From Mesorhizobium sp. 65-26 (lineage in GTDB: Bacteria > Pseudomonadota > Alphaproteobacteria > Rhizobiales > Rhizobiaceae), in the NCBI GenBank assembly GCA_001899205.1, contig MKVL01000025.1, positions 124,001-188,000 on the forward strand: a stretch of DNA of 64,000 nucleotides, given 5' to 3'. The notes beneath the pieces are model-generated. The model searched no databases. It saw nothing but the letters and a program-made list of their open reading frames with translations, and was not told the DNA's origin. Positions 23,864-39,198 of this stretch are shown here, one piece after another; the stretch's first letter is position 1; each line of letters begins with the position of its first letter. Both the position numbers and the translations under genes were made by a program.

Positions 23864-23881
23864 ATTGAACCGATAGTCAAT
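23864..23881. promoter_or_regulatory. Inverted-repeat operator 1 (candidate TetR site)
   Basis: The site reads ATTGAACCGATAGTCAAT, with ATTGA/TCAAT arms (six-base arms TATTGA/TCAATA counting one flanking base each side). It differs from the copy at 24061 at two of 18 positions. It covers the presumed -10 box of the minus-strand catabolic operon, a position suited to repression. Size and half-site spacing fit TetR-family operators. That the TetR protein at 14164 binds it is inference. Confidence 0.6.
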
Positions 23882-23901
23882 AATTTGACGCCTCCTGTCA
23901 A
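23873..23901 (-). promoter_or_regulatory. Possible sigma-70 promoter of the catabolic operon
   Basis: Read on the minus strand, TTGACA (23901-23896) is followed after 17 bases by GACTAT (23878-23873). The -35 matches consensus fully; the -10 is poor. Operator 1 overlaps the -10, which supports the pairing. Start of transcription would fall about 100 bases upstream of the SDR start codon. Confidence 0.4.
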
Positions 23902-24060
23902 GTCGATTTGACGAGCGGTATCCTCCTTTTGTCGGCCTGGGAAAAGATTCGAAAAGCCAGATATGCAGGTATAATTGTGAAAAATCCGCAGCTTAAATCG
24001 ATGAGAAGATGCTGCTGGGCGCGAGAACGACGCTTTCCCGATAAGGGACAAAAAATGATT

Positions 24061-24078
24061 ATTGAATCGCTAGTCAAT
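24061..24078. promoter_or_regulatory. Inverted-repeat operator 2 (candidate TetR site)
   Basis: The site reads ATTGAATCGCTAGTCAAT and matches operator 1 at 16 of 18 bases, including both arms. It ends four bases before a good -35 hexamer of the plus-strand importer operon. Two copies in one divergent region and none seen elsewhere in the window suggest coordinate control of both operons by one dimeric repressor. Confidence 0.6.
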
Positions 24079-24082
24079 TTTG

Positions 24083-24111
24083 TTGACCGTCGCGGCTGTC
24101 GCTGCTACTGT
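24083..24111 (+). promoter_or_regulatory. Likely sigma-70 promoter of the importer operon
   Basis: TTGACC (24083-24088), a 17-base spacer, then TACTGT (24106-24111). Both boxes match at least four of six consensus positions, and operator 2 abuts the -35. A message starting near 24118 would have a leader of about 470 bases before the permease gene, or would include the frame at 24147. Confidence 0.5.
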
Positions 24112-24146
24112 CCGTAAATCTTGTGGTCGCCTGGGAGGAGCGAACG

Positions 24147-24593
24147 ATGAGGCATCCGCGATCGACAGCTGGCTCCTCGGCGCCGCGTCTCCCGATTCTT
24201 GCCGGCGCGATCCCCTCGCGGTCCTGCCTGGTCTCCTCGCCAGTCCCTTTCGAAAGCAGGAACCGCCGGGCCGTGCGGCGCATGGCGCTTGCCCGTGGGC
24301 GTGACGCCAGAACGTTTCCTTATACCGGCCAAACCAACACAGTCTTTGATCTGCGCATCGTTCTTCGCGACAGTTTCGCAACAGAGTCCCGGCGCATGTC
24401 GTGCAGCCGGGCGCCCCGGGGAGAGCAACGCCGGGCAAGCAAGGGTGGAAGCGTGACCATATCATCGGTTCTTGCCGTCCCGGCCGAAGCCGCCGGCGCA
24501 ATCGCGGCGCATTCTGCGGCGTGGCTGGGTGCGGACGGGCCCTGCATGCGGGGCCAACCATTGTTTTGGCGTGACGGGGCGAGCGGACGATGA
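24147..24593 (+). CDS. Doubtful leader ORF upstream of the importer operon
   Basis: A 148-codon frame about 30 bases below the likely promoter. It starts with ATG behind a strong ribosome site (GGGAGGAGCG) and ends as an ATGA overlap with the permease start. A shorter version from GTG 24453, also with a purine-rich site, would give a 46-residue peptide starting MTISSVLAVPAEAAG. Against it: the first 90 residues are rich in Arg and Ser like an out-of-frame product, and no family is recognised. It may be a decayed gene, a small leader peptide, or noise. Confidence 0.25.
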   Translation: MRHPRSTAGSSAPRLPILAGAIPSRSCLVSSPVPFESRNRRAVRRMALARGRDARTFPYTGQTNTVFDLRIVLRDSFATESRRMSCSRAPRGEQRRASKGGSVTISSVLAVPAEAAGAIAAHSAAWLGADGPCMRGQPLFWRDGASGR

Positions 24594-25639
24594 GCGGAAC
24601 CGAACTCAACGGCGGCGGCCAGGCCGAAGCCGTCGCGAAAGCCGGTCCGGCGGGTGGCGCATCCTTCCTGAAGGGCGTCGCCTTCGACCAGCAGATGATC
24701 GTGCTCCTGCTGTTCGCGGCCATCTTCCTTGCCTTCAGCCTCCTGCTTCCGGGCTTCTTCACCGTCGGCAACCTGCTGACCCTGATGCGCACGGTCTCGG
24801 TGCTGGGCATTCTCGGTCTCGGCATGGCCGTCGTCGTCATCGGGCGTGGCATCGACCTGTCCATGATCGCGTCGCTGGCGGTGCCTTCGGCCGTAGTGCT
24901 GATGCTCGCCTCGAAAGACTACGGCATCGCCACGTCGCTTCTCTGCGGCGTGTCGCTGGCCGTCGCCATCGGCGTGCTTAATGGCTTCCTCGTCGCCTAT
25001 GCGGAAATCCCGTCGCTGTTCACGACGCTGGCGGTCGGCATCGGCATCGCCGGCATCGGCCAGAGCGGCCTGTTCGAGTACGAGATCGTGCCGTGGCCCG
25101 CGCAGCTCGCGGCCATCAGCTGGATCGGGCAGGGCAGCTTGCTCGGCATTCCCTATTCGGTGCTGGCCTTCATCGCAGCCGCGATCATCGTCGGCATATT
25201 CATGCGCAAGACGCGGCTCGGCGCCTTCATCTACGCCAGCGGCGACAATCCGAACGCCGCCCGCATCGCCGGCATTCCGGTGCGTCCGATCCTGATGCTG
25301 CAATACATCATCGCCGGGCTTGTCGCGATGTTCGCCGGGCTGGTCCTGTCGGCTTCCAGCTCCAGCATGGACACGCGCATCTTCAACTTGACCTGGATCT
25401 ACGACGTCATCCTGGTCGTCGTGCTCGGCGGCATCGGCCTGTCGGGTGGGCGCGGCGGCGTCATCAACGTCATCATCGGCACGCTGCTCATCGGCACCAT
25501 CGTCAACGGCATGACCATCATGAACGTGTCGTTCGAGATGCAGAACCTCATCAAGGGCGTGGTGCTGCTTGCCGCCCTTTCCATCGACAGCATCGTCAAT
25601 CCTCGCAACGAGGAAACGGCGCAGCAGGGAGATATCTGA
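24590..25639 (+). CDS. CUT2 (ribose-type) ABC transporter permease
   Basis: A 349-residue inner-membrane permease of the RbsC type, with about ten hydrophobic segments. They include MIVLLLFAAIFLAFSLLLPG, a GLGMAVVVIGRGIDLSMIAS region (the GGIDLS-like signature), RLGAFIYASGDNPNAARIAG in the cytoplasmic coupling loop, and LGGIGLSGGRGGVINVIIG. It would form half of the channel, with the fused permease at 26799 as the other half. The Ala/Gly-rich N-terminal 25 residues are cytosolic. A 55-base gap leads to the binding-protein gene. Substrate unknown; CUT2 systems carry pentoses, polyols and other small organics. Confidence 0.9.
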   Translation: MSGTELNGGGQAEAVAKAGPAGGASFLKGVAFDQQMIVLLLFAAIFLAFSLLLPGFFTVGNLLTLMRTVSVLGILGLGMAVVVIGRGIDLSMIASLAVPSAVVLMLASKDYGIATSLLCGVSLAVAIGVLNGFLVAYAEIPSLFTTLAVGIGIAGIGQSGLFEYEIVPWPAQLAAISWIGQGSLLGIPYSVLAFIAAAIIVGIFMRKTRLGAFIYASGDNPNAARIAGIPVRPILMLQYIIAGLVAMFAGLVLSASSSSMDTRIFNLTWIYDVILVVVLGGIGLSGGRGGVINVIIGTLLIGTIVNGMTIMNVSFEMQNLIKGVVLLAALSIDSIVNPRNEETAQQGDI

Positions 25640-25694
25640 CCGCGCCACGGGGCGCGTTCGGGTCAACGACATCGTCACAAATCAGGAGGAGACT

Positions 25695-26705
25695 ATGATC
25701 GGACTGAAGAAGATAGGAATGGCGGTCGCCATGGCGGCGACCGTGCTGACCGGCGGCATCGCCCATGCACAGAACAGCATGAGCGACCCGGCGCGCGCCG
25801 GCTACTACGACAATCTGAAGGGCAAGCGCGTCGTCTTCGTGCCTGTCTTCATGGGGCTGGACCTGACCGAGGGATGGTCCAAGATGATGTCGCGGCAAGC
25901 CGACAAGCTCGGCTACAAATACGAGGTTCGCAACTCGAACTTCAACACGGCCGCCGGCGCCCAGACCATCACGTCGCTGATCACCGAGAAGCCCGACGTC
26001 ATCGTCGTGCAGAACCCCGATGTGCAGTCCTATGCCAAGCTGCTTGCCAAGGCCGAGAAGGCCGGCATCCACGTCATCCAGCTCAACATGAAGACCAACG
26101 TGCTCACCACCGGTTTCGTCGGCGCCGACGTCGAGGAACTGGGCGAGCTGCAGGCCAAGGAAGTCGTCGCCCATTGCGGATCCGGCACCTCGGGCAAGGT
26201 GCTTGTGCTCGCGGGCCCGCCGTCAAGCCCGTTCTCCGCCTACATGCTCAAGGGCTACGAGAACATCCTCAACAAGTCGCCGGAAGTGAAGGTCGTCTCA
26301 GTCCAGTCGACCGGCGATTACGAATCCGCCAAGGCCAAGTCGATCACCCAGGTCGTCCTGCAGCAGCACCCTGACCTGTGCGGCGTGCTCGGCGTCTGGG
26401 ACAATACCGACGTCGGCACCGCAGCAGCGGTCAAGGAAGCAGGCAAGAGCGGCCAGGTGTTCGTCTCGTCCTCTGGCGGCGGCGGCGAGCTGGCCTGCAA
26501 GGGCATCGAGGAAGGCATGTGGCAGCACTACGTCAGCTATGACGTGCCCGGCCAGGCGCGCGACCTCAACAACCTGATCCTTGCCGCGCTGCAGGACAAG
26601 AACCCGGTCGGCACCACCAAGACGATCCTCTACACGCCGCTGGTGATCTACAACAAGGACAACATCAAGAACCAGTTCTGCTGGACCTTGGACACCATCC
26701 GCTGA
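25695..26705 (+). CDS. CUT2 ABC transporter substrate-binding protein
   Basis: A 336-residue periplasmic protein of the ribose-binding (periplasmic-binding type 1) fold. A signal peptide is clear: GLKKIGMAVAMAATVLTGG then a cleavage-like AHA-Q near residue 24. The first lobe starts GKRVVFVPVFMGLDLTEGW, the second lobe has GKVLVLAGPPSSPFSAYMLKG, and the ligand cleft should include the VLGVWDNTDVG and SSSGGGG segments. Two late cysteines (GELACKG and FCWT) might form a disulphide. The ATG 25695 has AGGAGGAGAC just upstream. A GC-rich hairpin follows the stop. It captures the ligand for the two permeases of the operon. Confidence 0.9.
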   Translation: MIGLKKIGMAVAMAATVLTGGIAHAQNSMSDPARAGYYDNLKGKRVVFVPVFMGLDLTEGWSKMMSRQADKLGYKYEVRNSNFNTAAGAQTITSLITEKPDVIVVQNPDVQSYAKLLAKAEKAGIHVIQLNMKTNVLTTGFVGADVEELGELQAKEVVAHCGSGTSGKVLVLAGPPSSPFSAYMLKGYENILNKSPEVKVVSVQSTGDYESAKAKSITQVVLQQHPDLCGVLGVWDNTDVGTAAAVKEAGKSGQVFVSSSGGGGELACKGIEEGMWQHYVSYDVPGQARDLNNLILAALQDKNPVGTTKTILYTPLVIYNKDNIKNQFCWTLDTIR

Positions 26706-26715
26706 TCCCCGGGCG

Positions 26716-26739
26716 AGGGGCGTCGCCAGCGGCGCCCCT
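26716..26739 (+). other. Intercistronic hairpin after binding-protein gene
   Basis: Seven-base arms AGGGGCG / CGCCCCT around a 10-base loop, 10 bases after the binding-protein stop and without a T tract. Such hairpins often protect the upstream binding-protein message or reduce read-through to the permease gene. That role here is inference. Confidence 0.5.
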
Positions 26740-26798
26740 TACCGAAAACACCCGAACTGATCTTTCGTTCACGCAAAGCAGACGGCGTTTTTCCCTCC

Positions 26799-28901
26799 AT
26801 GTCCAATACCCTAACCAAACTGCGGTACCGCTACTGGCCGGACCATGTTTTCGGCGAACTGCTGCAGAAGCAGTGGATGGAAACGGCGGTGCCTCTGCTG
26901 GTGCTCCTGCTGACGATCGCCTTCTTCAGCTCCCGCATCGACAACTTCATCTCCGTCGCCAACCTGTCCGACACGCTTCGGCAGGCGAGTGAACTGGGGT
27001 TCGTCGTGCTCGGCATGTCGCTGGTGCTGATCGTCGGCGGTATCGATCTCTCCGTCGCCTCCGTCTTTGCGCTGTGCAATCTCACCGCGCTCTATTGCAT
27101 CAACGTGCTCGGCCTGCCGACGCCGGCCGTCATCGCGCTGACGCTGCTGCTCGGCGCGGTGCTCGGCGCGGTCAATGGCGTCCTGATCGGCTATATGCGC
27201 ATGCGCGCCTTCCTCACCACCATGGTGACGCTGATCGTCTACAAGGCCATCCATGACCTCCTGAATTTCCAGCTCGCGGTCGCGATCTCGTCCGTCGTTC
27301 CCGACGTTCCGGCCTGGGATTTCCTCGGCAATGGCGACTTCCTGTCCATCCCGACCGTGGTGTGGGTGTTCGCCATCGTCGCGATCGCCAGCCACATCTT
27401 TCTGACCCGCCTGCGTCCGGGCTGGTATGTGATGGCCATCGGCGGCAACCGCCGCTCGGCCTACAATATCGGCCTGCCGGTCAACCGCGTCGTGGCCATG
27501 TCCTACATGGCCTCGGGCGTGTTCGCCGCGACCTCGGCGATCTTCTACGCCTCGCGTCTCGCCAGCCCCGGCGCCGATACCGGCAAGGGCCTCGAGATCA
27601 CGGTGCTCACCGCCGCCATCCTGGGTGGTATCCGCCTCGGCGGCGGCAAGGGGTCGGTCACCAAGGCCGTGCTCGGAACGCTGATCATCCTGATCATCAC
27701 CAACGGTCTGCTCAGGCTCGCCACCCCGGCCGGCGCCGCGCGCCTCATCCTGGCGACCATCCTGCTGCTCGCCGCAACGCTCGACATACGCTGGTTCAAG
27801 AACCGCCACAAAGCGGTGCAGGAACTCTATGTAAGCCCGTCCTACCTGGAACTGCCGCAATCGCCGCCGACGGGAGCCTCGTCCCCCTTCGCGCTCAACG
27901 ACAGGCTGCGCGCGGTCGAGCAGATCGGCCTCGGCGAAGTCGAGTCGCCGGAAGACGTCATCCTCGACAGGGAGGACAATCTCTACTGCGGCAGCCGCCA
28001 CGGCGAGATCATCCGGTTCTTCGCGCCCGACTACAAGCGCATGGAGGTCTATGCGCGTATCGGCGGCCAGCCGCTCGGCATGGCTTTCGATGCCGGCGGC
28101 ACGCTGTTCGTCTGCGTCGGCGGCATGGGCCTCTACCGGGTCAATCCCGACCGCACGGTCGAGAAGGTCACCGACGAGACCAATCGTTCGCTCCTGTCCG
28201 TGGTCGACGACAGCCGCCTGCGCCTGGCGGACGACCTCGACATCGCGCCTGACGGCCGCATCTTCTTCTCCGAGGCGACGATCCGCTACGAGATGCATGA
28301 ATGGCCGACCGACAGCCTGGAAGGCCGCGGCAACGGCCGCATCATCTGCTACGACCCGCGCTCCGGGAAGACGCACACAGTGCTTCGGCACCTCATCTTC
28401 CCGAACGGCGTTGTGCTGGCCTCGGACAAGGAATCCATCATCTTCGCCGAGAGCTGGAACTGCTCGATCAAGCGCCACTGGTTCGCGGGCGCAAAGGAAG
28501 GCACGACCGAGACCGTCATTGCCAGCCTTCCCGGCTATCCCGACAACATCAACGTCTCTTCGGACGGCAACTACTGGCTGGCGCTGATGGGCATGCGCAG
28601 CCCGGCCTTCGACCTTGCCATGCGCAAGCCGGCCTTCCGCCGGCGCATGTCCAAGCGCCTGCCCGGCGACGAATGGCTGGCGCCGAACATCAACACCGGC
28701 TGCATCGTCAAGTTCAACGAGAAGGGCGAGATCCTCGATGCCCTGTGGGATCTCGGCGGCCTCAACCATCCGATGATCACCTCGATGCGCGAGCACAAGG
28801 GCTACCTCTACATAGGCGGCATCTCCAACAACCGCATCGGCAGGATCAAGCTCGAGGGTGCCGACCCTGAATTCGTATCGAGCGGGCGCTATAATGTTTG
28901 A
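26799..28901 (+). CDS. ABC transporter permease fused to a strictosidine-synthase/SMP-30-like propeller
   Basis: A 700-residue fusion. Residues 1 to about 340 are a full CUT2 permease (LVLIVGGIDLSVASVFAL signature, RPGWYVMAIGGNRRSAYNIG coupling loop, GGIRLGGGKGSVTKAVLG). After a linker of about 30 residues, a soluble domain runs from about 375 to 700 with the pattern of strictosidine-synthase-like/SMP-30 six-bladed propellers: VESPEDVILDREDNLYCG, RLADDLDIAPDGRIFFSE, IFPNGVVLASD, FAESW, LPGYPDNINVSSDGNYWLAL, GLNHPMITSM. RbsC-type permeases end in the cytosol, so the propeller should lie there, near the ATPase. Family members hydrolyse lactones or bind ligands. The reading frame is continuous; the fusion is seen directly, its role is unknown. 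Confidence 0.88.
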   Translation: MSNTLTKLRYRYWPDHVFGELLQKQWMETAVPLLVLLLTIAFFSSRIDNFISVANLSDTLRQASELGFVVLGMSLVLIVGGIDLSVASVFALCNLTALYCINVLGLPTPAVIALTLLLGAVLGAVNGVLIGYMRMRAFLTTMVTLIVYKAIHDLLNFQLAVAISSVVPDVPAWDFLGNGDFLSIPTVVWVFAIVAIASHIFLTRLRPGWYVMAIGGNRRSAYNIGLPVNRVVAMSYMASGVFAATSAIFYASRLASPGADTGKGLEITVLTAAILGGIRLGGGKGSVTKAVLGTLIILIITNGLLRLATPAGAARLILATILLLAATLDIRWFKNRHKAVQELYVSPSYLELPQSPPTGASSPFALNDRLRAVEQIGLGEVESPEDVILDREDNLYCGSRHGEIIRFFAPDYKRMEVYARIGGQPLGMAFDAGGTLFVCVGGMGLYRVNPDRTVEKVTDETNRSLLSVVDDSRLRLADDLDIAPDGRIFFSEATIRYEMHEWPTDSLEGRGNGRIICYDPRSGKTHTVLRHLIFPNGVVLASDKESIIFAESWNCSIKRHWFAGAKEGTTETVIASLPGYPDNINVSSDGNYWLALMGMRSPAFDLAMRKPAFRRRMSKRLPGDEWLAPNINTGCIVKFNEKGEILDALWDLGGLNHPMITSMREHKGYLYIGGISNNRIGRIKLEGADPEFVSSGRYNV

Positions 28902-29985
28902 TGCTGTTTCCTCGCTGATCTCCTCTGTCTTCGGGCGCGGCTCCAGCCTTTCGGTGCCGATCCTGGATGGCGCCCTGAAGCCGAACAACATGATCGAGCG
29001 CGCGACGATCCTGGCCGAGCGCCAGGGTCTGGAGGATATCGCGCTCGACCCTGCGAACGTGTTGCACGTGGCCTGCGGCCGCGAGGTGCTGAAACTCTCG
29101 GACAACGGCGAATTCACCGTCGCGGCGAGTTTCGATCGCCCGGTGACCGCGCTCGCCTTCACCACGGGCGGCGAACTCGCCGTCGGCCTCGGCAATGCCG
29201 TGGCCGTCGGTGGCCGTGTCCTGGACAGCGCCGACGGCAAACCCTTCGTGGCGGTCAACGCCCTGTCCGCCACCCCGGATGGCGGCCTGCTGATTACCGA
29301 TGGCTCCGCCTCCAGGCCTTATGCCCAGTGGAGCCACGACCTGATGGAGGCCGGCCGCACGGGGCGGTTGCTCCGCTATGATGGAAACGGGCGCGTCGCC
29401 ACGCTGGCGTCGGGTCTCGGCTATGCCTTCGGCGCGATGGTCGACGCGCGTGGCCGCACGCTGGTCAGCGAAAGCTGGCGCCATCGGCTGAGCCTCGTCG
29501 AGGGCGGCCGCACGCGGGAAGCCGTGCCGGCGCTGCCGGGCTATCCTTCCCGGCTGGCGCCGACGCCGGATGGCGGCTTCTGGCTGACGCTGTTTTCCTG
29601 CCGCACGCAACTGGTCGAATTCGTCCTTCAGGAGGACGATTACCGGCGTGAGATGATGCGCACCATCGACCCGAAATACTGGGTGGCACCGGCCTTGAGC
29701 TCCGGCGAGGACTATATGGAGCCGCTGCAGGGCGGCAGCGTCAAGCAAATGGGCATCCTCAAGCCGTGGGCGCCGCCGCGCTCCTACGGGCTTGCCGTGC
29801 GCTTCGACGCCGATTTCCTGCCGCTCTACTCGGTCCACAGTCGCACGGGCGGCCGCAATCACGGCGTCGTCGCGGCCGTGCAGCGCGGCGACGACCTGTT
29901 CCTGCTGTCCAAGGGCGCCGGACGCGTGCTGCGACTTTCGGTTGCGGAGATCCAGTCGGCATGGACGAAAGGGACAAACGAATGA
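28894..29985 (+). CDS. Strictosidine-synthase/SMP-30-like propeller protein
   Basis: A 363-residue soluble protein of the same fold as the C-terminal half of the preceding gene. It has repeated blades ending in short DG turns: GLEDIALDPANVLHVA, TPDGGLLITDGSASRPYAQW, ESWRHRLSLVEGG, LPGYPSRLAPTPDGGFWLTL and a closing RSYGLAVRFDADF. The ESW and LPGYP motifs are shared with the fused domain, so the two are probably paralogs. No signal peptide is seen, so it is cytosolic. The ATG (28894) lies inside the end of the fusion gene (8-base overlap), which indicates coupled translation. A lactonase or hydrolase step on the imported compound is possible but unproven. Confidence 0.8.
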   Translation: MFDAVSSLISSVFGRGSSLSVPILDGALKPNNMIERATILAERQGLEDIALDPANVLHVACGREVLKLSDNGEFTVAASFDRPVTALAFTTGGELAVGLGNAVAVGGRVLDSADGKPFVAVNALSATPDGGLLITDGSASRPYAQWSHDLMEAGRTGRLLRYDGNGRVATLASGLGYAFGAMVDARGRTLVSESWRHRLSLVEGGRTREAVPALPGYPSRLAPTPDGGFWLTLFSCRTQLVEFVLQEDDYRREMMRTIDPKYWVAPALSSGEDYMEPLQGGSVKQMGILKPWAPPRSYGLAVRFDADFLPLYSVHSRTGGRNHGVVAAVQRGDDLFLLSKGAGRVLRLSVAEIQSAWTKGTNE

Positions 29986-31472
29986 GCCCGATCCTCGAAC
30001 TGCGCCAACTGACCAAGGTCTACGCGCGTGTCGCCGCCGTCGAGAGCATCGACTTTACCTTGCTCAAGGGCGAGGTCCATGCCCTGCTCGGCGAGAACGG
30101 CGCCGGCAAGTCGACGCTGACCAAGATGATCGCCGGCGTTGTGTCTCCGACTTCGGGGACGATCGTTCTCGACGGCAAGGACATCACCTTGCGCACGCCG
30201 TCGGACGCGCTGGCCGCCGGAATCGCCATGGTGTTCCAGGAAACCAGCCTGGTGCCGTCCATGACGGTGGCGCAGAACCTGTTCCTCGGCAACGAGCACT
30301 TCTTCAACCGCGTGCGCGGCATCAACATCGCCGCACAACAGTTCATGCAGTCGCTGAGCTTCCAGGTCGATCCGACCGTGCAGGTCGGCTCGCTGGGAGC
30401 GGCCAAGAAGCAGATGGTGGAGATCGCCCGCGCCATGCTGCTCAAGGCGCGCATTATCGTCTTCGACGAGCCGACCGCGACGCTGACGCCCGAGGAGAAG
30501 CGCCACTTCTTCGAACTCGTCAACACGCTCAGGGAGCGCGGCGTCTCCGTCATCTTCATCTCGCACGCGCTGGAAGAGGCGTTGTCGATCTCCGACCGCA
30601 TCACCATCCTGCGCGACGGCAAGCTGGTGCTGACCGACAAGACCGCGAATTTCGACCGCGCCCGCATCGTCCAGGCGATGGTCGGCCGAACCCTCTCGCA
30701 GGAACTCTACGGCACGCGCAAGACCAGCGTGCGCCCGGCGGGTCGCCGGGTGCTCAGCGTCAGCAACCTGCGCGTCGGCAACGTGGTGAAGAACAATTCG
30801 CTCTCCGTCTTCGCCGGGCAGATCACCGGCATCTTCGGCCTTGTCGGCTCGGGCCGCACGGAGACCTTCAAGGTCGTCGCCGGCGCGATCAAGCGCGACT
30901 ACACCAATGGCGGCGAAGTGTTCCTCGACGGCAAGCGGGTGCGCTATCGCGTGCCGGCGCAGAGCGTTCGCGACGGCGTCGCCTACATCACCGAGGATCG
31001 CAAGATCGAGGGCTTCTTCGAAACCATGTCGATCAAGTCGAACATCTTCATGGGGCTACTCGCCAAGCTGCGCGGCAAGTTTTGGCTGAAGGGGCGCGAG
31101 GTCGACACCGTCGGCGAAAAATGGGTGAAGTCGCTGCAGGTGCGCGCCGTCAGCAAGGGCGCGCGCGTCATCGAACTGTCCGGCGGCAACCAGCAGAAGG
31201 CGGTGATCGCCAAGTCGCTGGTGCAGGAGCCCGAGCTCATCATCTTCGACGAGCCGACGCGCGGCGTCGACGTCGGCGCCATCGCCGAGATCCATCAGAT
31301 CATCAACCGGCTCGCCGACGAGGGCAAGGCGGTGGTGGTGATCTCATCCTACCTGCCGGAGGTCATGCAGCTCTCCGACCGCTTGCTTGTGGCGCGCCAG
31401 GGCAAGGTGGTGGAGGAGTTCTCGCCTATCGAAGCGACCGAGGAAAAGCTCATGTACGCCGCCGTGCACTAA
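29982..31472 (+). CDS. CUT2 ABC transporter ATP-binding protein (two NBDs)
   Basis: A 496-residue RbsA-type ATPase with two nucleotide-binding domains. The N-terminal half has Walker A GENGAGKST, Walker B IIVFDEPTATLT and a weak signature (LGAAKKQ). The C-terminal half has a degenerate Walker A (GLVGSGRTE), a normal signature LSGGNQQKAVIAK and Walker B IIFDEPTRGVDVG. This asymmetry is usual for the family. It energises the two permeases at 24590 and 26799. The ATG overlaps the propeller stop as ATGA. It is the last gene of the operon; a strong terminator follows 84 bases later. Confidence 0.93.
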   Translation: MSPILELRQLTKVYARVAAVESIDFTLLKGEVHALLGENGAGKSTLTKMIAGVVSPTSGTIVLDGKDITLRTPSDALAAGIAMVFQETSLVPSMTVAQNLFLGNEHFFNRVRGINIAAQQFMQSLSFQVDPTVQVGSLGAAKKQMVEIARAMLLKARIIVFDEPTATLTPEEKRHFFELVNTLRERGVSVIFISHALEEALSISDRITILRDGKLVLTDKTANFDRARIVQAMVGRTLSQELYGTRKTSVRPAGRRVLSVSNLRVGNVVKNNSLSVFAGQITGIFGLVGSGRTETFKVVAGAIKRDYTNGGEVFLDGKRVRYRVPAQSVRDGVAYITEDRKIEGFFETMSIKSNIFMGLLAKLRGKFWLKGREVDTVGEKWVKSLQVRAVSKGARVIELSGGNQQKAVIAKSLVQEPELIIFDEPTRGVDVGAIAEIHQIINRLADEGKAVVVISSYLPEVMQLSDRLLVARQGKVVEEFSPIEATEEKLMYAAVH

Positions 31473-31555
31473 ACGCGGGGGATAGCGAGCTGTCCCCTTG
31501 GCGGCATCTGCGCCGGCCCCAACCCTGGACATAGCCGGCGCATTGCCTCCCAAGG

Positions 31556-31598
31556 CAAGCAAAAACCCCCGGATCGATGATCCGGGGGTTTTTGCTTG
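31556..31598. terminator. Bidirectional intrinsic terminator
   Basis: A perfect 20-base stem (31556-31575 with 31579-31598) and a three-base loop. The arms are CAAGCAAAAACCCCCGGATC and its complement, so each strand ends in a T run after a GC-rich core. It sits between the convergent ATPase (plus) and SDR (minus) genes and can end both operons. Confidence 0.9.
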
Positions 31599-31613
31599 GG
31601 TCCGTGAGATGTC

Positions 31614-32363
31614 TCAGACGGTGCGGCCGCCATCCACTTCCAGCACGACGCCGGTGATGAAGTCGGCATCGTCCGAAGCCAGGTAGAGGCAGGCGTTGGC
31701 AATGTCGCGCGGCGTCGAGAAGCGGCCGAGCGGAATAGTGGCGATGAAGCGCGCACGGTTCTCCGGCGTGTCGGGCACGCCCATGAACTGCTCGATCAGG
31801 CCGGTGGCGCCCATGACCGGGGCAACACAGTTGACGCGGATGTTGTGCGGAGCGAGCTCCACGGCCATCGAGCGCGACAGGAGATTCACCGCGCCCTTGG
31901 TGGAGTTGTACCAGGTGAGGCCCGGACGCGGGCGGATGCCGGCCACCGAGCCGATGTTGATCATGACGCCGCCGCCCTGCTTTTGCATCGGCGGCACCAC
32001 GGCGCGCGACATGTGGAAGATCGAGCGCACGTTGATGTCGTAGACGCGCTCGAATTCCTCTTCCGTCACTTCCAGCATCGGCTTGTTGCGATGTGTCCAT
32101 CCGGCATTGTTGATGACGATGTCGATCTTGCCGCCGAAGTCGACCGTGGCGGCGACCGCGGCGTTGATGTCGGCGGCCTTGGTGACATCGCCCTTGACGG
32201 CGCGCGCGGCCGCGCCGATCGATTTCGCCGTCGCGTCGGCTCCTTCACCGTTGAGGTCCATGATCACCACCTTGGCGCCCTCGCGCGCGAAGGTCTTGGC
32301 GATCTCGACGCCGAAGCCGGACGCCGCTCCCGTCACCAGTGCTGTCTTGCCGTCTAGTCTCAT
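31614..32363 (-). CDS. Short-chain dehydrogenase/reductase
   Basis: A 249-residue classical SDR: TGAASGFG cofactor loop (about 11-18), VIMDLNGE at the end of beta-2 (Asp, NAD preference), VINNAGW, and the YNSTK active site. The start ATG 32363 has AGGAGACAG upstream and is preferred over an ATG five codons earlier. It is the last gene of the itaconate-type operon, after an aldehyde dehydrogenase, so the pair could convert an alcohol to a carboxylic acid. It is not part of the known itaconate pathway, and its substrate is unknown. Confidence 0.87.
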   Translation of the reverse strand: MRLDGKTALVTGAASGFGVEIAKTFAREGAKVVIMDLNGEGADATAKSIGAAARAVKGDVTKAADINAAVAATVDFGGKIDIVINNAGWTHRNKPMLEVTEEEFERVYDINVRSIFHMSRAVVPPMQKQGGGVMINIGSVAGIRPRPGLTWYNSTKGAVNLLSRSMAVELAPHNIRVNCVAPVMGATGLIEQFMGVPDTPENRARFIATIPLGRFSTPRDIANACLYLASDDADFITGVVLEVDGGRTV

Positions 32364-32389
32364 CTTCTGTCTCCTCACTTTGCTGTCTG

Positions 32390-33859
32390 TCAGTCGTGCT
32401 TGACGACGATGGTTTTCATGGTGGTGAAGTCGTGCAGGGCGGCGAAACCCTTCTCGCGGCCATGGCCGGATTTGCGCACGCCGCCGAAGGGCAGCTCGAT
32501 GCCGCCACCCGCCCCATAGGCGTTGACGTATACCTGGCCGGCGCGAACCTTGCGGGCGACGCGCGTGGCGCGCTTGGCATCCTGCGTCCAGACGCCGGCG
32601 ATCAGGCCGAACTCGGTGCCGTTGGCGGTCGCGATCGCGTCGGCCTCGTCATCGAACGGGATGACCGAAAGCACCGGGCCGAACACTTCCTCCCGCGCCA
32701 GCGTGTTGGAGCGCGGCACCGGTCCGTAGAGCTTCGGCGCGACGAAATAGCCGGCCTGCGGCGCGCCGTCGGCGACGCGACCCTCTGCCAGGAGCGGGAT
32801 GCCGTCATCCGCGGCCTTGGCGCAGAAACTCTCGACGCGTTTCTTCTGGCGCGGGTTGATCAGCGCGCCAAGATCGAGATCCATCTCCGGCGTTCCCGCG
32901 CGCAGCGTCGAGAAGCGAGCGACCACCGCCTCGACCACCCGGTCGTAACCCTTCTTCTCGACCAGCAGGCGAGAGCCTGCGGAGCAGGTCTGCCCGGCGT
33001 TCTGCACAATGGCGTTGACCAGGCTGGGCAGGGCCGCATCGAGGTCGACGTCGTCAAACACGATGTGCGGTGATTTCCCGCCGAGTTCGAGCGTACAGGT
33101 GATGTGGTTCTTCGCCGCCTCCGTCTGCACCATCACGCCCACCTCTGGGCTGCCGGTGAAGGACAGGAAGTCGACGCCGGGATGCGAGATCAGCGCGGCG
33201 CCCGCCTCCGCGCCGATGCCCGGCACGATGTTAAGCGCGCCCTCGGGAAAGCCGGCCTCCGCCGCCAGCTCGGCAAGGCGCAGCGGGGTGAGGCAGGCGT
33301 CCTCCGCCGGCTTCAACACGGTCGCGTTGCCGGTGGCCAGCGCCGGCGCCAGTGTGCGGCCGAACATCTGCGCCGGGTAGTTCCATGGAATGATGTGGCC
33401 GGTCACGCCGTGCGGTTCGCGCTCCGTGGCGACGAAATAGCCGTTCATGAACGGGATCGTCTCGCCATGGAACTTGTCGGCCGCGCCGCCGTAGAATTCG
33501 AAATAGCGGGCGCAGGCAAGAATGTCGGCGCGCGCCTGCCTGAGCGGCTTGGAGGTATCGCGCGCCTCGATCAACGTCAGCTCGTCGGCATGGTCGAGGA
33601 TCAGTTGCCCGAGCTTCGACAGCAGGCGGCCGCGATCGACCGCTGCGAGCCGGCCCCAGGCGCCTTCATGGGCGCGGCGCGCCGCCTTGACCGCCAGGTC
33701 GATATCCCCTGCGCCGCCCGCGGCGATCTCTGCGAACACGACCCCTTCGGCGGGCGCGTAAACGTCCACAGTCCGGCCGGACAGGGCAGGGCGCCACTGG
33801 TTGTCGATGAAGACGCCTTTCGCCTTCTGCACCGGTGCCTGCCTCGTTCCATCATTCAT
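32390..33859 (-). CDS. NAD(P)+-dependent aldehyde dehydrogenase
   Basis: A 489-residue ALDH-superfamily enzyme oxidising an aldehyde to an acid. Catalytic elements: the NAD loop FTGSPEVG, Glu in LELGGKSPHI, Cys at about residue 292 in QNAGQTCSAGSR, and the C-terminal ELPFGGVRKSGHGREKG. The last motif is typical of broad ALDH families acting on betaine- or semialdehyde-like substrates. The frame opens at TTG 33865, but ATG 33859 has GAGGAG eight bases upstream. It follows the lyase gene after 12 bases and is probably in the same operon; the substrate is unknown. Confidence 0.9.
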   Translation of the reverse strand: MNDGTRQAPVQKAKGVFIDNQWRPALSGRTVDVYAPAEGVVFAEIAAGGAGDIDLAVKAARRAHEGAWGRLAAVDRGRLLSKLGQLILDHADELTLIEARDTSKPLRQARADILACARYFEFYGGAADKFHGETIPFMNGYFVATEREPHGVTGHIIPWNYPAQMFGRTLAPALATGNATVLKPAEDACLTPLRLAELAAEAGFPEGALNIVPGIGAEAGAALISHPGVDFLSFTGSPEVGVMVQTEAAKNHITCTLELGGKSPHIVFDDVDLDAALPSLVNAIVQNAGQTCSAGSRLLVEKKGYDRVVEAVVARFSTLRAGTPEMDLDLGALINPRQKKRVESFCAKAADDGIPLLAEGRVADGAPQAGYFVAPKLYGPVPRSNTLAREEVFGPVLSVIPFDDEADAIATANGTEFGLIAGVWTQDAKRATRVARKVRAGQVYVNAYGAGGGIELPFGGVRKSGHGREKGFAALHDFTTMKTIVVKHD

Positions 33860-33871
33860 GTCCAAATCTCC

Positions 33872-34696
33872 TCACGATATCTGTTGCTGGCCTGCGCCGC
33901 GTCTGCTGTTGCGTTGCAGGACGAGCCGCGCCCTGGCGATGACAGGTGCGTCGATCATCTGGCCATCCACGGCCCGCGCGCCGCCGTCGCTGGCCGCGCT
34001 GACGATCCGGCTGGCCCATTCGACTTCGGCCGGGCCGGGCAGAAAATGCTCCAGCACGGCGACAGGCTGCGAAGGATGGATGCAAAGCTTGCCGCCGGCG
34101 CCGCACCCGACGGCCGTCCGGCACTCGTCGGCAAGTGCCTCCGCGTCGCCGATCCTGAAGGCGGGGCCGTCAAGCGGCGGCGCGATGCCGGCCGCTCGGC
34201 TGGCAACGGCAAGCCGGCACAGCGCATGCCGTGTCATTTCGACCGAGGCGGACATGCCCATGTCGAGGAAGAAATCCGCCGGTCCGAAAGCCAGTTGCGC
34301 GACCTGGCGATGCCGCGCGATCGGTAGCGCATGCTCAAGGCCGCTGGCCGTCTCGATCTGCGCGATCAGCGTAACCGCGTAAGGGAAACGGGCGGCGATG
34401 CGGTCGAGCAGCCCAGGGTCCTCGACCTTGGGAACGCAGATGCGAGTGAGGCCATGCGCGCGCAGCGCCGCGAGATCTGCCTCGTGCCAGGGCGTGCCTT
34501 CCGCGTTGATGCGCACGAAGGCTGGAACGGCAAGGGCGGCGACCGCCCCGAGATTGCCGCGCGCTTCGTCCTTCAGGCTCTCCGGCACCGCATCCTCAAG
34601 GTCGACGATCACCGCGTCGGCGCTCGAGGCGGCCGCCTTGGCGAAGCGCTCCGGCCGGCTTGCCGGCACGAACAGCGGGGCGGCGACCGGCGCCAT
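33872..34696 (-). CDS. ccl: CitE-like CoA ester lyase, probable (S)-citramalyl-CoA lyase
   Basis: A 274-residue HpcH/HpaI-type TIM barrel related to citrate lyase beta. Seen: RSxxFVPAxRPE-like start (PLFVPASRPERFAKA), the metal region VIVDLEDAVPESLK, VRINAEGT, a catalytic/metal Glu in IAQIETASGLEH, and GGKLCIHPSQP near the end. Family members split malyl-, citramalyl- or HMG-like CoA esters. In the itaconate pathway citramalyl-CoA gives acetyl-CoA and pyruvate. The assignment rests on the neighbours (class III CoA-transferase, MaoC hydratase, MmgE/PrpD, acyl-CoA dehydrogenase, LysR), which match the P. aeruginosa set. The ATG overlaps the hydratase stop by one base (TGATG). Confidence 0.8.
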   Translation of the reverse strand: MAPVAAPLFVPASRPERFAKAAASSADAVIVDLEDAVPESLKDEARGNLGAVAALAVPAFVRINAEGTPWHEADLAALRAHGLTRICVPKVEDPGLLDRIAARFPYAVTLIAQIETASGLEHALPIARHRQVAQLAFGPADFFLDMGMSASVEMTRHALCRLAVASRAAGIAPPLDGPAFRIGDAEALADECRTAVGCGAGGKLCIHPSQPVAVLEHFLPGPAEVEWASRIVSAASDGGARAVDGQMIDAPVIARARLVLQRNSRRGAGQQQIS

Positions 34697-35541
34697 CACG
34701 GTTGCGCCCTCGCTTCCATGTGAATGTGCCCGTCGCTTTCGGTCCAGTAACTCGTCGTGTCGTCCGCACCGTGGCAAACGCTCAGCTCGCCGCCGACGAT
34801 GGCCGGCGCCACGCCGCGATAGCTGAAGCGTCGCGGCGTGTGGCCGATTTCAGCGGCCGCGAGATTGAACAGCAGTGTCGCCTGCATCGGCCCATGCACC
34901 ACCAGCCCGTCATAGCCTTCGACGCCGGTGGCGTAGGGATGGTCGTAGTGGATGCGGTGGCCGTTGAAGGTGATGGCCGAGTAGCGGAACAGGAGCACCG
35001 GCGAGGTGCGCAGGTTCCAGGCGGAGGCGTGCGCCCGTCGGGCAAGTATGGGTTCCGCCTTGCCGGCCGGGGACGGCTGCGGGCGCGCCGCGTCGCGATA
35101 GACGATGTCCTGCCGGTCCCGGATCGCGACGCCCCTGGCGGTGCGGTATTCGTGCGCGACTGTGACGAACCAGAGCTCGCCCGAGCGACCCTGCTTGTGC
35201 TGGATGTCGCTGATGGCGGACGTCCGCGTGACCGCGTCGCCGACGCGCAGCGCATCGAGGGTCTCCACCTCTCCGCCCGCCCACATGCGGCGCGGCAGCG
35301 GCACGGGCGGCATGTCGCGGTTCTTGGCCGGATGCCCGTCGGGGCCGAGTTCGTCCATCGGCGCGATGGCCGGGCACAGGCACCAGTGCAGGCCGGGTGG
35401 CGCATGTCCCTCCTCGACCGGGGCGAGGTGTGGGGCAAGTATGGCCCTGAAGCTGGCGTCGAGCCGCCCGGTGACGACGTCCTCCGAGTGGCTCGCGCGG
35501 CCTATCCAGTCCGAGAGTTGGCTGGGCAACGGGTCGGTCAT
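34696..35541 (-). CDS. ich: MaoC/FAS1-type hydratase, probable itaconyl-CoA hydratase
   Basis: A 281-residue double hot-dog hydratase of the mesaconyl-C4-CoA/itaconyl-CoA hydratase group. The N-terminal part has the substrate-tunnel segment PKNRDMPPVPLPRRMWAGG-like (GHPAKNRDMPPVPLPRRMW) and GGEVETLDALRVGD. The C-terminal hot dog contains the hydratase motif FNGHRIHYDHPYA with the catalytic Asp/His pair and GYDGLVVHGPMQATLL. It would hydrate itaconyl-CoA to citramalyl-CoA. It lies 18 bases after the acyl-CoA dehydrogenase and is coupled to the lyase. Mesaconyl-CoA is the main alternative substrate. Confidence 0.8.
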   Translation of the reverse strand: MTDPLPSQLSDWIGRASHSEDVVTGRLDASFRAILAPHLAPVEEGHAPPGLHWCLCPAIAPMDELGPDGHPAKNRDMPPVPLPRRMWAGGEVETLDALRVGDAVTRTSAISDIQHKQGRSGELWFVTVAHEYRTARGVAIRDRQDIVYRDAARPQPSPAGKAEPILARRAHASAWNLRTSPVLLFRYSAITFNGHRIHYDHPYATGVEGYDGLVVHGPMQATLLFNLAAAEIGHTPRRFSYRGVAPAIVGGELSVCHGADDTTSYWTESDGHIHMEARAQP

Positions 35542-35559
35542 CGCGGTTCTCCGGTATCC

Positions 35560-36720
35560 TCAGTAAGAGCGCGGCATCTTGAGCACGTGCTCGGAGAGGA
35601 AGGACAGGACCAGGTTGGTCGAGATCGGCGCCACCTGGTAAAGGCGGGTCTCGCGGAACTTGCGCTCGACGTCGTATTCCTCGGCGAAGCCGAAGCCGCC
35701 ATGCGTCTGGATGCAGGCGTTGGCCGCTTCGTTGGAGGCGTCGGCCGCCAGCATCTTGGCCATGTTGGCTTCGGCGCCGCAGTCCTTGCCCTGTTCGTAG
35801 AGGCGCGTTGCCTCCTTCACCATCAGCTCGGCGGCGCGCATGTTGGCGTAGGCGCGCGCGATCGGGAACTGCACGCCCTGGTTGGCGCCGATCGGCCGTC
35901 CGAAGATGTTGCGTTCGCCGGCATAGCGGGAGGCCTTCTCGATCAGCCATTTCGCGTCGCCGACGCATTCGGCCGCGATCAGGATGCGTTCGGCGTTCAT
36001 GCCGGAGAGGATATAGCGGAAGCCCTTGCCTTCCTCGCCGACGAGGTTTTCCGCCGGCACGCGCACATTGTCGAAGAAGACCTCCGTCGTGGCGTGGTTC
36101 ATCATCGTGCGGATCGGCCGGATGGTAAGCCCGTTGCCGATCGCTTCGCGCATGTCGAGGATGAAGACCGAAAGCCCGTCCGTGCGCTTGGCTACCTCGT
36201 CGCGTGGCGTGGTGCGCGCGAGCAGCAGCATCAGGTCGGAATGTTCGGCGCGGCTCGTCCAGATCTTCTGGCCGTTGACGACATAGTGGTCGCCCTCGCG
36301 GCGTGCGAAGGTGCGCAGCGAGGTGGTGTCGGTGCCGCTCGAGGGTTCGGTGACGCCGAATGCCTGCATGCGCAGTTCGCCGCTCGCCACCTTCGGCAGG
36401 TAGCGCTGCTTCTGCGCTTCGCTGCCGTGCCGCAGGACGGTGCCCATAACATACATCTGCGCATGGCAGGCGCCGCCATTGCCGCCGGAACGATGGATCT
36501 CCTCCAGAACGGCCGCCGCCGCCGACAGCGTCAGCCCCGCGCCGTCATATTCCTCAGGGATCAGCGTCGCCAGATATCCGGCCTCGGTCAGCGCATTCAC
36601 GAACTCGGCGGGGTAGGCGCGCTCGGCGTCGAGCTTGCGCCAGTACTCCCCGGGGAAGCGTTCGCACAGCTTGCGCACCGCCTCGCGGATATCCTTGTGG
36701 TCTTCTGCTTCAAACATCAT
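35560..36720 (-). CDS. Acyl-CoA dehydrogenase
   Basis: A 386-residue FAD enzyme. Family segments: GYLATLIPEEYDGAG, FGVTEPSSGTDTTSL, KIWTSRAEHSDLM, YAGERNIFGRPIGANQGVQ, and THGGFGFAEEYDVERKF. As in the dehydrogenase at 17825, the C-terminal catalytic Glu is missing (QVAPISTNL), and a Glu in MNAERILIA (residue 244) is the likely base. An acyl-CoA dehydrogenase also sits in the P. aeruginosa itaconate operon, where its role is not settled; methylsuccinyl- or itaconyl-type CoA esters are possible substrates. Its start overlaps the end of the MmgE/PrpD gene by 11 bases. Confidence 0.88.
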   Translation of the reverse strand: MMFEAEDHKDIREAVRKLCERFPGEYWRKLDAERAYPAEFVNALTEAGYLATLIPEEYDGAGLTLSAAAAVLEEIHRSGGNGGACHAQMYVMGTVLRHGSEAQKQRYLPKVASGELRMQAFGVTEPSSGTDTTSLRTFARREGDHYVVNGQKIWTSRAEHSDLMLLLARTTPRDEVAKRTDGLSVFILDMREAIGNGLTIRPIRTMMNHATTEVFFDNVRVPAENLVGEEGKGFRYILSGMNAERILIAAECVGDAKWLIEKASRYAGERNIFGRPIGANQGVQFPIARAYANMRAAELMVKEATRLYEQGKDCGAEANMAKMLAADASNEAANACIQTHGGFGFAEEYDVERKFRETRLYQVAPISTNLVLSFLSEHVLKMPRSY

Positions 36721-38038
36721 TCATACCGGGCGTTGCGCCCGCCTTTGCTTGCGGAAAGAGGGCGAGGGAACGGACCGGCGCGTCGTCCGGAAGCGCCAGG
36801 ATCGCGGCGATCAGTGCCTCGGCGCGGTTTTGGCCGATGCCGCCGTCGGCGAGCACCGTGCGCGCCTTGGCGGTCATCTCGGCCGCGTTGACCGGATTCT
36901 CCGGATCGCCCTTGGCATCGCGGCGGGCGGCGCTGAAGCGCCGTCCGTCCGTGGTCTCGACATCCAGTTGCGTGCCCCAGGAAGCCGGATAGGCAGCGTC
37001 GACGGCGGCGGCGAGACCGACCTCGACCTTGGCGCGGTCCGCCGCCAGCCGCGCGCGGGCATCGGCGTCGAAGCTCGACTGCACGACGAAGCCGTCGCTG
37101 AGCGCCGCTGCCACGCAATGCTGCAGCGAGAATTTCGCGCTGTAGGGATCCTGCGGCAGCGGCCTGTCGCACACGTCGAGCGCGGCCTGATAGGCGCCGA
37201 CCTTCACATTCGCGATGTCGGCGTCGCCGATCGCCTGGCGCAGTTCCAGCGCAGCGTCGATGGACGGGTGCGTGTGGCGGCAGCACGGCCAGGGCTTGAT
37301 CGAGGTCCGTGTCAGTTCCCAGGTGCGTTGCGGCTCGGCGGTCACGGCGTCCGGGACGGGATCGGGGCACAGCCCCGCGAAGAAGCCCTTCTTGCCCTCC
37401 AGTATCTCTTCCGGTCCGGTAAAGCCCTGCTCGGCCATCAGCGCAGCCAGCACGCCGGATTCGGCGGCGCGCGCCGTGTGCAGGTGCTTGCTCATGGCGC
37501 CCGTTTCCAGGAATTGCCACAGCCCGGAAGATTGCGTGCCGGCATTGCCCAGCGCCCACACGGCCTGGTCTTCCGACAGGCCGATCAGTTCGGCCGCCGC
37601 CATGGCGGAGCCGAATGGGCCGCAGGTCGAGGTGTTGTGCCAGACGCGGTAGTGCGCCTTGCCCGCGGCCATGCCGACACGGCAGCAGGCTTCGTAGCCC
37701 GCAAGCACGGCCTCCAGGAAAGCGATGCCGCCGCGATCGTCGCGGGTCGCGACCGCCAGTGCCGCCGGGATGACGACGCAGCCGGGATGCGTGACGGAAT
37801 CGCGATGCAGGTCGTCCATCTCGAGGATGTGCGAGAGCCCGCCGAAATGGAAGGCACCGCGCGGCGTATCCGCGCTCTCCAGCGGCGCGATCGCCCTCAG
37901 GATGCGCGCCGGCTCGGTCTTTCCCGCGCCGAGCGCGCAGGCCAGAGTGTCGAGCACGAACAGCGATGCCTGCTCCAGGTCCTGCCGGCTGTATGGCCTG
38001 GCGCGGATGAGGCGCACGAGGTCTCGGCTGAGGCTCAT
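36710..38038 (-). CDS. MmgE/PrpD-family protein of the itaconate-type operon
   Basis: A 442-residue MmgE/PrpD superfamily member: an N-terminal helical domain with FVLDTLACALGAGKTEPARIL, the GLSHILEMDDLHRDSVTHPGC segment, the GAMSKHLHTARAAESGVLAA helix and a lid domain after RTSIKPWPCCRHTHPSIDA. The family covers methylcitrate dehydratase and cis-aconitate decarboxylase, the itaconate-forming enzyme. Which reaction applies here is unknown; a hydro-lyase or isomerase on a related dicarboxylate is reasonable. The start ATG (38038) overlaps the CoA-transferase stop as ATGA. The upstream extension of the frame has no family features. Confidence 0.85.
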   Translation of the reverse strand: MSLSRDLVRLIRARPYSRQDLEQASLFVLDTLACALGAGKTEPARILRAIAPLESADTPRGAFHFGGLSHILEMDDLHRDSVTHPGCVVIPAALAVATRDDRGGIAFLEAVLAGYEACCRVGMAAGKAHYRVWHNTSTCGPFGSAMAAAELIGLSEDQAVWALGNAGTQSSGLWQFLETGAMSKHLHTARAAESGVLAALMAEQGFTGPEEILEGKKGFFAGLCPDPVPDAVTAEPQRTWELTRTSIKPWPCCRHTHPSIDAALELRQAIGDADIANVKVGAYQAALDVCDRPLPQDPYSAKFSLQHCVAAALSDGFVVQSSFDADARARLAADRAKVEVGLAAAVDAAYPASWGTQLDVETTDGRRFSAARRDAKGDPENPVNAAEMTAKARTVLADGGIGQNRAEALIAAILALPDDAPVRSLALFPQAKAGATPGMNDV

Positions 38039-39198
38039 GACTTGGCTGCCCCGGCGACGGCGTTGCGGGCAACGGGACCGCCGAATTCGGAGCGTATCGC
38101 CTGGCTGTGCTCGCCAAGCGCCGGCACCTTGCCCAGCGCCGGGCGGCGGCCATTGAGCACCACCGGCGGCGCCAGCACTTCCACCGGTCCGGCCGGTGTC
38201 TGCACCGATGCCGTCGTCGCGCTCTTGTGCGCCATCAGGTCGGCCATGGTGGAGATGCGTCCATAGGCGATGCGCACCCTGTCGAGCAGGCGGCACAGCG
38301 CGTCGACGGTGCGGCGCGCCACGGCGGCCTGCACATTGCGGTCCAGCTCGGTGCGGTTCTGCACGCGCGCCGTGTTGCGATCGAAACGGGGGTCGTCTGC
38401 AATGCTCGGATTGCCCAGCACGTGCTCGCAGAACAGTTTCCATTCGCGCTCGTTCTGGATGGCGATCAGCACGTCGCCGTCGCTGGCGCTGAACACGCCA
38501 TAAGGTGCAATCGAAGGGTGGGCGAGTCCGAGCCGCTGCGGCTCGCGCCCGCTGTAGCGGCGGCCGAGATAGGGCACGTTGAGATATTCGGCGATGGTGT
38601 CGAACAGGGACACCTGGATGTGCGAGCCCTGGCCGGTCTTCTCGCGCAGCAGCAGCGCCTGCAGGATGGCCGCGTAGGCCGCCTGGCCGGTGGCGATGTC
38701 GCAGATGGAGATGCCCACGCGCGTCGGGCCGGACAGGCTGGAACCGGTCACGCCGGAAAGGCCGGCCTCGGCCTGGATCAACAGGTCGTAGGCCTTGCGC
38801 TCCTCGTCGGGCGTGCCGGCGGCGAAGCCGACGATGTCGCAGACCGTGAGCCTGCCGTGGCGCTTGCGCAGCGCCTCGCTGCCGATGCCGAGACGCTCCG
38901 TCGCGCCGGGCGCCAGGTTCTGCACGAAGACATCGGCGCCGGCGATCATCTCCTCGACAAGGGCGAGGTCCTCGGGGTCCTTAAGGTCGACGATGCAGGA
39001 TTCCTTGCCGCGGTTGTTCCACACGAAATAGGACGATTGGCCGAGCACGTAGTCGTCGTAGCCACGCGCGAAATCGCCCTCGGGGCGCTCGAGCTTGATG
39101 ACGCGCGCGCCGGCGTCCGCGAGCCGGGATGTCGCGAGCGGCGCCGCCACGGCTTGCTCCAGCGCGACAACGACCGTTCCCTGGAGTACGCCGCTCAT
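38035..39198 (-). CDS. ict: Class III CoA-transferase, probable succinyl-CoA:itaconate CoA-transferase
   Basis: A 387-residue CaiB/BaiF-type transferase moving CoA between carboxylates. Seen: LEQAVAAPLATSRLADAGARV with KLERPEGD (CoA-binding part), NRGKESCIVDLKDPE, VFVQNLAPGATERLG, and the catalytic Asp in KAYDLLIQAEAGLSG. It is the first gene of the operon, about 250 bases below the LysR gene. In P. aeruginosa a class III enzyme charges itaconate from succinyl-CoA, and the gene set here matches; other dicarboxylates such as mesaconate or methylsuccinate remain possible. Confidence 0.82.
   Translation of the reverse strand: MSGVLQGTVVVALEQAVAAPLATSRLADAGARVIKLERPEGDFARGYDDYVLGQSSYFVWNNRGKESCIVDLKDPEDLALVEEMIAGADVFVQNLAPGATERLGIGSEALRKRHGRLTVCDIVGFAAGTPDEERKAYDLLIQAEAGLSGVTGSSLSGPTRVGISICDIATGQAAYAAILQALLLREKTGQGSHIQVSLFDTIAEYLNVPYLGRRYSGREPQRLGLAHPSIAPYGVFSASDGDVLIAIQNEREWKLFCEHVLGNPSIADDPRFDRNTARVQNRTELDRNVQAAVARRTVDALCRLLDRVRIAYGRISTMADLMAHKSATTASVQTPAGPVEVLAPPVVLNGRRPALGKVPALGEHSQAIRSEFGGPVARNAVAGAAKS

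Follow-up and report, generated by a model that had tools for sequence, protein, structure and literature searches.

ATP-binding cassette (ABC) importers of the RbsABC type, which serve monosaccharides or autoinducer-2 (AI-2), are built from a complete permease domain, a binding protein and an RbsA-type ATPase. Among the strictosidine-synthase-like (SSL) propellers of the N6P superfamily most members retain four metal ligands and probably act as hydrolases; the four ligands mark the hydrolytic members, while true strictosidine synthases are metal-independent outliers (PMC4215206). A propeller lactonase can be joined to an unrelated functional domain, as in DrSOD, a Cu/Zn superoxide dismutase fused to a calcium-dependent propeller lactonase with the ligands Glu200, Asn290, Asn339 and Asp381, which is a two-enzyme protein with neither a transporter nor a partner propeller (PMC12362111). 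Here we analyse a 64,000-nucleotide stretch of Mesorhizobium sp. 65-26 (contig MKVL01000025.1, positions 124,001 to 188,000; hereafter the window), in which one of two ABC permeases continues into an SSL-type propeller (the fusion) and is followed by a gene for a second, free propeller. The locus has the three RbsABC components in common with the sugar importers, and it differs from them in having two different permeases, one of them with a C-terminal propeller, in the additional free propeller, in neighbours that point to CoA-ester catabolism and in scores that lie under every listed named equivalog cut-off. With the N6P SSL proteins, of which TGW6 (8kg3) is the closest solved, the fused propeller shares the fold, the SSL_N and Str_synth domains and the metal-site residues of the hydrolytic majority, but it is attached to a transporter and predicted to be cytosolic, whereas 13 stand-alone relatives carry an N-terminal hydrophobic stretch. 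The initial annotation knew of no characterised case, and we likewise found no description of the arrangement in the open-licence PMC literature, although a study of how SSL proteins evolved (Hicks et al. 2011, cited in PMC4215206) may mention the architecture; PMC6710368 has an SMP-30 family gene as a table entry and no more.

A complete permease and an SSL propeller in one frame

The cassette consists of the following genes and parts, all on the + strand:

24590..25639, +, permease 1, the unfused BPD_transp_2 partner (open reading frame, ORF; PF02653 match G000:C25:148773-149579)
25695..26705, +, sugar-type binding protein (ORF 25569-26705; start inferred by eye from an ATG ahead of a signal-peptide-like N-terminus; orthologues named 'sugar ABC transporter substrate-binding protein')
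26799..27788, +, permease half of the fusion gene, residues 1-330 (PF02653 and the RbsC model PRK09512)
27789..27890, +, linker, residues 331-364, beginning RWFKNRHK (Y344 and P347 kept in at least 97% of 57 fusions)
27891..28901, +, SSL-type propeller and stop codon, residues 365-700 (PF20067, PF03088 and PF08450 above cut-off)
28894..29985, +, free propeller gene, 363 residues (ATG start assumed; identified by profile, fold and residue comparisons)
29982..31472, +, RbsA-type ATPase (ORF; ATGA overlap with the free propeller gene; CP031586.1 orthologue annotated rbsA)

The fusion is a complete RbsC-type permease followed by an SSL propeller. As the initial annotation held, the permease frame runs unbroken into the propeller domain: the ORF listing gives 26799-28901 as a single frame of 700 residues with 0 internal stops, and both halves match Pfam. 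In the permease half BPD_transp_2 covers residues 56-325 (101.3 bits, cut-off 26.8, profile positions 2-267 of 269) and PRK09512 covers residues 21-329 at E 4.3e-47, which is under its equivalog cut-off; the permease indeed falls into none of the named NCBIfam equivalogs listed (ribose, AI-2, arabinose and others), with a best score of 160.9 against a cut-off of 398. In the propeller half SSL_N matches residues 363-407 (46.0 bits, cut-off 18.9), Str_synth residues 478-563 (62.8 bits, cut-off 25) and SGL residues 392-598, above its own cut-off. A frameshift or stop between the domains would have undone the proposal, but a frameshift or assembly error is ruled out by the one open frame in 57 aligned fusions, by six such frames in the same genome and by their occurrence in several bacterial families. 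These 57 fusions are distinct in their last 300 residues, include the window's copy and leave out three loci cut by contig ends (L019, L042 and L059); each is open through both domains.

The order permease 1, binding protein, fusion, free propeller, ATPase is found at 35 of 36 loci, the exception (L011) being a 4-kb contig, and some ATPases are cut where the stretch ends. The operon thus holds a binding protein, a second permease and an ATPase as in BPD_transp_2 sugar-type ABC importers. The free propeller has its own gene, whose ATG at 28894 overlaps the fusion stop by 8 nt (the alternative start of the ORF is a GTG at 28858), and the motifs that the initial annotation had seen in both propellers are located at residues 551-553 (ESW) and 577-581 (LPGYP) of the fusion and at 193-195 and 214-218 of the free propeller. 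Its Str_synth match is borderline, 24.0 bits for the protein and 26.6 for the whole frame against the cut-off of 25. Across the genome Str_synth gives nine matches at E 0.01, namely the six fusions and three of the six free propellers, one of these three being above the cut-off.

Metal-site residues are kept in the fused propeller and broken in the free one

The residues of the fused propeller that align with the metal site of related propellers are:

27951..27953, +, putative metal ligand E385 (E in 57/57 fusions and in 13/13 stand-alone relatives)
28230..28232, +, putative metal ligand D478 (D in 47 and N in 10 of the 57 fusions)
28404..28406, +, putative metal ligand N536 (N in 57/57 fusions)
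28542..28547, +, putative metal ligands D582 and N583 (57/57 fusions each)

They match in order and motifs the paraoxonase set, which in PON1 comprises Glu53, Asn168, Asn224, Asp269 and Asn270 (PMC6100192). All five positions hold ligand-type residues in 57/57 fusions, with D or N at 478, and by this alignment mapping the fused propeller carries residues matching the four ligands of the hydrolytic N6P members in every case. The 13 stand-alone relatives are similar, with E in 13, D or N in 13, N in 12 and D in one, D in 13, and N in 11 and G in two at the successive positions. A true strictosidine synthase, metal-independent and devoid of the four ligands, can be set aside for the fused propeller, which keeps the metal-site residues. 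The initial annotation had called the domain lactonase-like and proposed a check for metal ligands: the check found them, at least as ligand-type residues, and the description is fair for the fold and the metal site, but the domain type itself is SSL with ligands kept, and its activity is putative.

The free propeller is different. Profile comparison aligns it with the fused propeller over 304 columns (probability 100, 21% identity), and through this correspondence 40 of 58 free propellers have a ligand-type letter at none of the five positions, 12 at one and six at two; the Asp-Asn pair is kept in 0/58. In the window's copy E47 and N122 are ligand-type, while F179, S219 and R220 are not. Over the family, position 47 is D in 41, E in 12 and another residue in five; position 122 is T in 48, N in seven and other in three; position 179 is N in five and otherwise varied; position 219 is A in 27, G in 17, S in 12 and C in two; and position 220 is R in 55, other in three and never N. 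The two propellers therefore differ in kind, the metal-site residues being kept in the fused and broken in the free one, and this contrast is new. The second propeller of the initial annotation stands as a separate gene but not as another copy of the same thing. Eight residues of its own are invariant in 58/58 free propellers (G180, Y217, W263, P266, S316, R317, G320 and H323), so it appears to be selected for something else.

Structure models and membrane side

AlphaFold2 models were built from an input of 11 close sequences. In the fusion model the propeller blocks mostly reach pLDDT (predicted local distance difference test) values of 70-90, while the permease, at about 30, was left unused (whole model 52.3); the free propeller model is usable, with a mean of 75.2. 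Foldseek against the PDB ranks TGW6 (8kg3) first for the fusion model (E 7.6e-18), then strictosidine synthases, with the RPA3624 lactonase, DFPase and SMP30 among lower-ranked matches; for the free propeller strictosidine synthases are best (E 1.4e-15).

The initial annotation placed the fused domain in the cytosol and the charge rule agrees. In a ten-helix model with the N-terminus inside and helix borders set by hand, inside loops carry on average 17.6 Lys + Arg residues versus 2.6 for outside loops (n=57), and the fusion point RWFKNRHK is strongly positive. No further 19-residue stretch with mean hydropathy of at least 1.6 is present in the last 365 residues of the 57 fusions, nor is there any in the first 40 residues of the 58 free propellers. 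Given the charge distribution and this lack of further hydrophobic stretches, both propellers should be cytosolic. A periplasmic propeller, an idea prompted by the stand-alone relatives, is rejected on the charges, on the RbsC model spanning residues 21-329 and on the hydropathy. The 13 stand-alone SSL relatives (L084-L096), with start codons assigned by hand, have an N-terminal hydrophobic stretch with a best mean hydropathy of 1.59-2.66, the weakest of which resembles a lipoprotein signal, and apparently they are extracytoplasmic. Many of them show a W-P motif after this stretch. The fused propeller thus looks like an extracytoplasmic type of hydrolase that would have been moved inside.

Distribution of the cassette

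The initial annotation left open how widespread the fusion is, and it is not unique to this locus: it is a conserved cassette with a patchy distribution across alpha-, beta- and gammaproteobacteria. In overlapping draws of genomes, all including the source genome, it is found in 25 of 61 (the source genome and 60 relatives, E <=1e-100), in 10 of 385 of the class and in 11 of 398 of the phylum (both E 1e-90, with at most two candidates scored per genome, so that copies are undercounted). Fifteen plasmid records carry it, from Shinella, Rhizobium, Salipiger, Sulfitobacter, a Paracoccaceae bacterium, Paraburkholderia, Celeribacter, Paracoccus and Pantoea. A near-relative scan, through which alone phyla other than Pseudomonadota were covered, gave 11 contigs, among them Thalassovita, Roseovarius and Antarcticimicrobium.

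The two propellers go together. In a survey of 289 class genomes (source genome included, at most seven candidates scored per genome) the fused-propeller profile gave 14 matches at E <1e-170, 14/14 within frames of 712-745 residues, so no split version of this propeller was seen; the free-propeller profile gave 14 matches at E <1e-110, each directly adjoining one of the 14 fusions. For the fused profile the matches that come next are two free propellers and, at E 1e-55 to 1e-76, stand-alone SSL proteins; for the free profile, fusions follow at E 1e-25 to 1e-35 and the stand-alone proteins at E 1e-16 to 1e-29.

In the source genome (6.84 Mb, 42 contigs) six fusion frames are intact, and each adjoins a free propeller. 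At E 1e-10 this genome has 113 BPD_transp_2 matches, a very large set of such permeases. Two of the six cassettes (L029 and L030; G000 contig C27, ~17800-33900) are complete and stand in tandem, with an acyl-CoA dehydrogenase and an IclR-type regulator between them; compared with the window's fusion, theirs show 55% and 49% identity.

Gene neighbourhood

On the opposite strand the window's cassette is followed by:

31614..39198, -, SDR, aldehyde dehydrogenase, HpcH/HpaI-type lyase, FAS1-like dehydratase, acyl-CoA dehydrogenase and CoA-transferase III
38035-39198, -, CoA-transferase III, at the end of this set

Acyl-CoA dehydrogenases, MmgE/PrpD, an AMP-binding enzyme and SDRs are also near. 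Upstream, 19011-23467 (-) encodes three components of a 2-oxoacid-dehydrogenase-type complex, E1 alpha, E1 beta and E2, and a gene for an enoyl-CoA hydratase lies among them. Elsewhere in the genome L029 is accompanied by CoA-transferase III, acyl-CoA dehydrogenase and aldehyde dehydrogenase, and L032 by CoA-transferase III, HMGL-like, carboxymuconolactone decarboxylase, enoyl-CoA hydratase and MmgE/PrpD genes, while L031 lies near an RND efflux pump and a LysR regulator and L033 near ornithine cyclodeaminase, MFS, amidohydrolase and CoxE-like genes. CoA_transf_3 occurs within 10 kb of four of the six cassettes versus one of 63 other BPD_transp_2 loci (Fisher p 8e-5), an association to which regional clustering contributes. 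CoA-ester genes flank some plasmid copies and not others. A single shared substrate, looked for in the gene context, is not supported, as the contexts vary.

Proposed mechanism and alternatives

We propose, with a probability of roughly 0.45, an RbsC-type importer with a tethered metal-dependent hydrolase that would act on the exiting cargo, accompanied by a free partner whose site is broken. Of the two permease subunits one would bear a metal-dependent SSL-type propeller hydrolase on its cytosolic C-terminus, so that cargo leaving the channel would meet the active site at the exit and be hydrolysed there. Going by the gene neighbourhood, a carboxylic acid in lactone or ester form is the most likely cargo; its hydrolysis would trap it and ready it for CoA activation. 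Of processing, gating and regulation, the three roles raised in the initial annotation, we favour processing.

What would be the role of the free propeller then? With its metal site broken it may be a pseudo-enzyme partner that docks on the unfused permease or the ATPase, so that the complex would contain two propellers alongside its two permeases. Its residues 1-30 (28894-28983) have a mean amphipathic moment of 0.60 versus 0.44, with 11% of control segments higher and with some rows beginning upstream of the likely start, and are possibly a docking helix. A DG-x-x-x-PN-like motif follows this segment. Going further, transport and the first catabolic step might operate as one machine, in which the broken-site twin under the other permease would couple enzyme occupancy to the ATPase cycle, a possibility that we put forward tentatively.

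The divergence of the binding proteins offers a link to the cargo. Over 28 operons the distances of the fused propeller follow those of the binding protein after permeases and ATPase are removed (partial r 0.51, Mantel p 0.001), whereas for the free propeller no such correlation remains (-0.23, p 0.97). In two-thirds subsamples the raw contrast between the two is 0.10 to 0.41. We read this as linking the fused propeller to the cargo, in a set that is small and structured.

Several points weigh against import-coupled hydrolysis. The ligand mapping comes from alignments rather than from a metal-bound structure, so that metal and activity are putative, and at position 478 Asp stands in 47 of the 57 fusions where PON1 has Asn. 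Most free propellers keep an acidic residue at position 47 (D in 41 and E in 12 of 58), so their site is broken, not erased. Eight of the 28 operons belong to the window's close subgroup and subgroup structure may therefore contribute to the correlation. Mean pairwise identity over these operons is 63.2% for the ATPase, 63.3% for the fused propeller, 50% for the permeases, 44% for the binding protein and 41% for the free propeller, while an enzyme for varied cargo might diverge more than the ATPase-like value of the fused propeller. Two cassettes are in tandem and six of the 12 CoA-transferases lie on two contigs with four cassettes, which makes the neighbourhood counts interdependent. Finally, neighbours vary between copies and so indicate no single substrate, with dihydroxyacetone kinase and triose-phosphate isomerase at one copy and a degradative HMG-CoA reductase at another.

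The main rival to import-coupled hydrolysis is a metabolite-sensing gate, in which the fused propeller would bind an internal product or a common metabolite and slow the importer, the free propeller being the second half of the gate. A propeller as conserved as the ATPase while binding proteins diverge suits this idea, since a common ligand could explain the high conservation equally well, and so does the pairing of fusion and free propeller in 14/14 cases. The transinhibited importers of methionine and molybdate also carry an extra cytosolic domain, but it is of another type and on another subunit, sitting on the ATPase with a fold different from the propeller, and a gate leaves aside the metal-site residues kept in all 57 fusions. 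Small fused domains for allosteric control have been termed a common theme (PMC10710835), and even so we consider the gate unlikely. Still less probable, in our opinion, is an ordinary cytosolic SSL hydrolase that is mechanically independent of transport and is tied to the permease to fix its stoichiometry and location. The stand-alone SSL relatives do share the metal-site residues, and fusion of a propeller lactonase to an unrelated enzyme has a precedent in DrSOD (PMC12362111), but no split version was seen among the 14 high-scoring propellers and a dedicated partner in 14/14 goes beyond the needs of a tether. That both propellers merely stabilise the permease-ATPase complex, any metal being structural, is improbable: the distances to the fused permease correlate better for the free propeller (r 0.85) than for the fused one (0.79; 1.1% of subsamples reverse) and the free propeller starts with a segment that is amphipathic on average, but the ATPase version of the distance contrast is not significant (18% of subsamples reverse), and it would be left unexplained why catalytic-type residues never vary in the fused propeller and are broken in the free one.

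Annotation is affected as well: 10 of the 15 plasmid copies carry the name of the propeller half alone ('SMP-30/gluconolactonase/LRE family protein'), two are named permease and three have no listed feature, while across 12 plasmid regions the free partner is labelled 'hypothetical protein' ten times and 'strictosidine synthase' twice. The six copies in one genome, with differing neighbours, make a ready comparative set. A hydrolase-like propeller on the inner side of the channel, together with a broken-site propeller, suggests that cargo is processed or sensed on entry. If the built-in enzyme does hydrolyse the cargo, a primary active transporter would here be covalently linked to an enzyme of catabolism, and the coupling of transport and metabolism could be tested on a concrete example.

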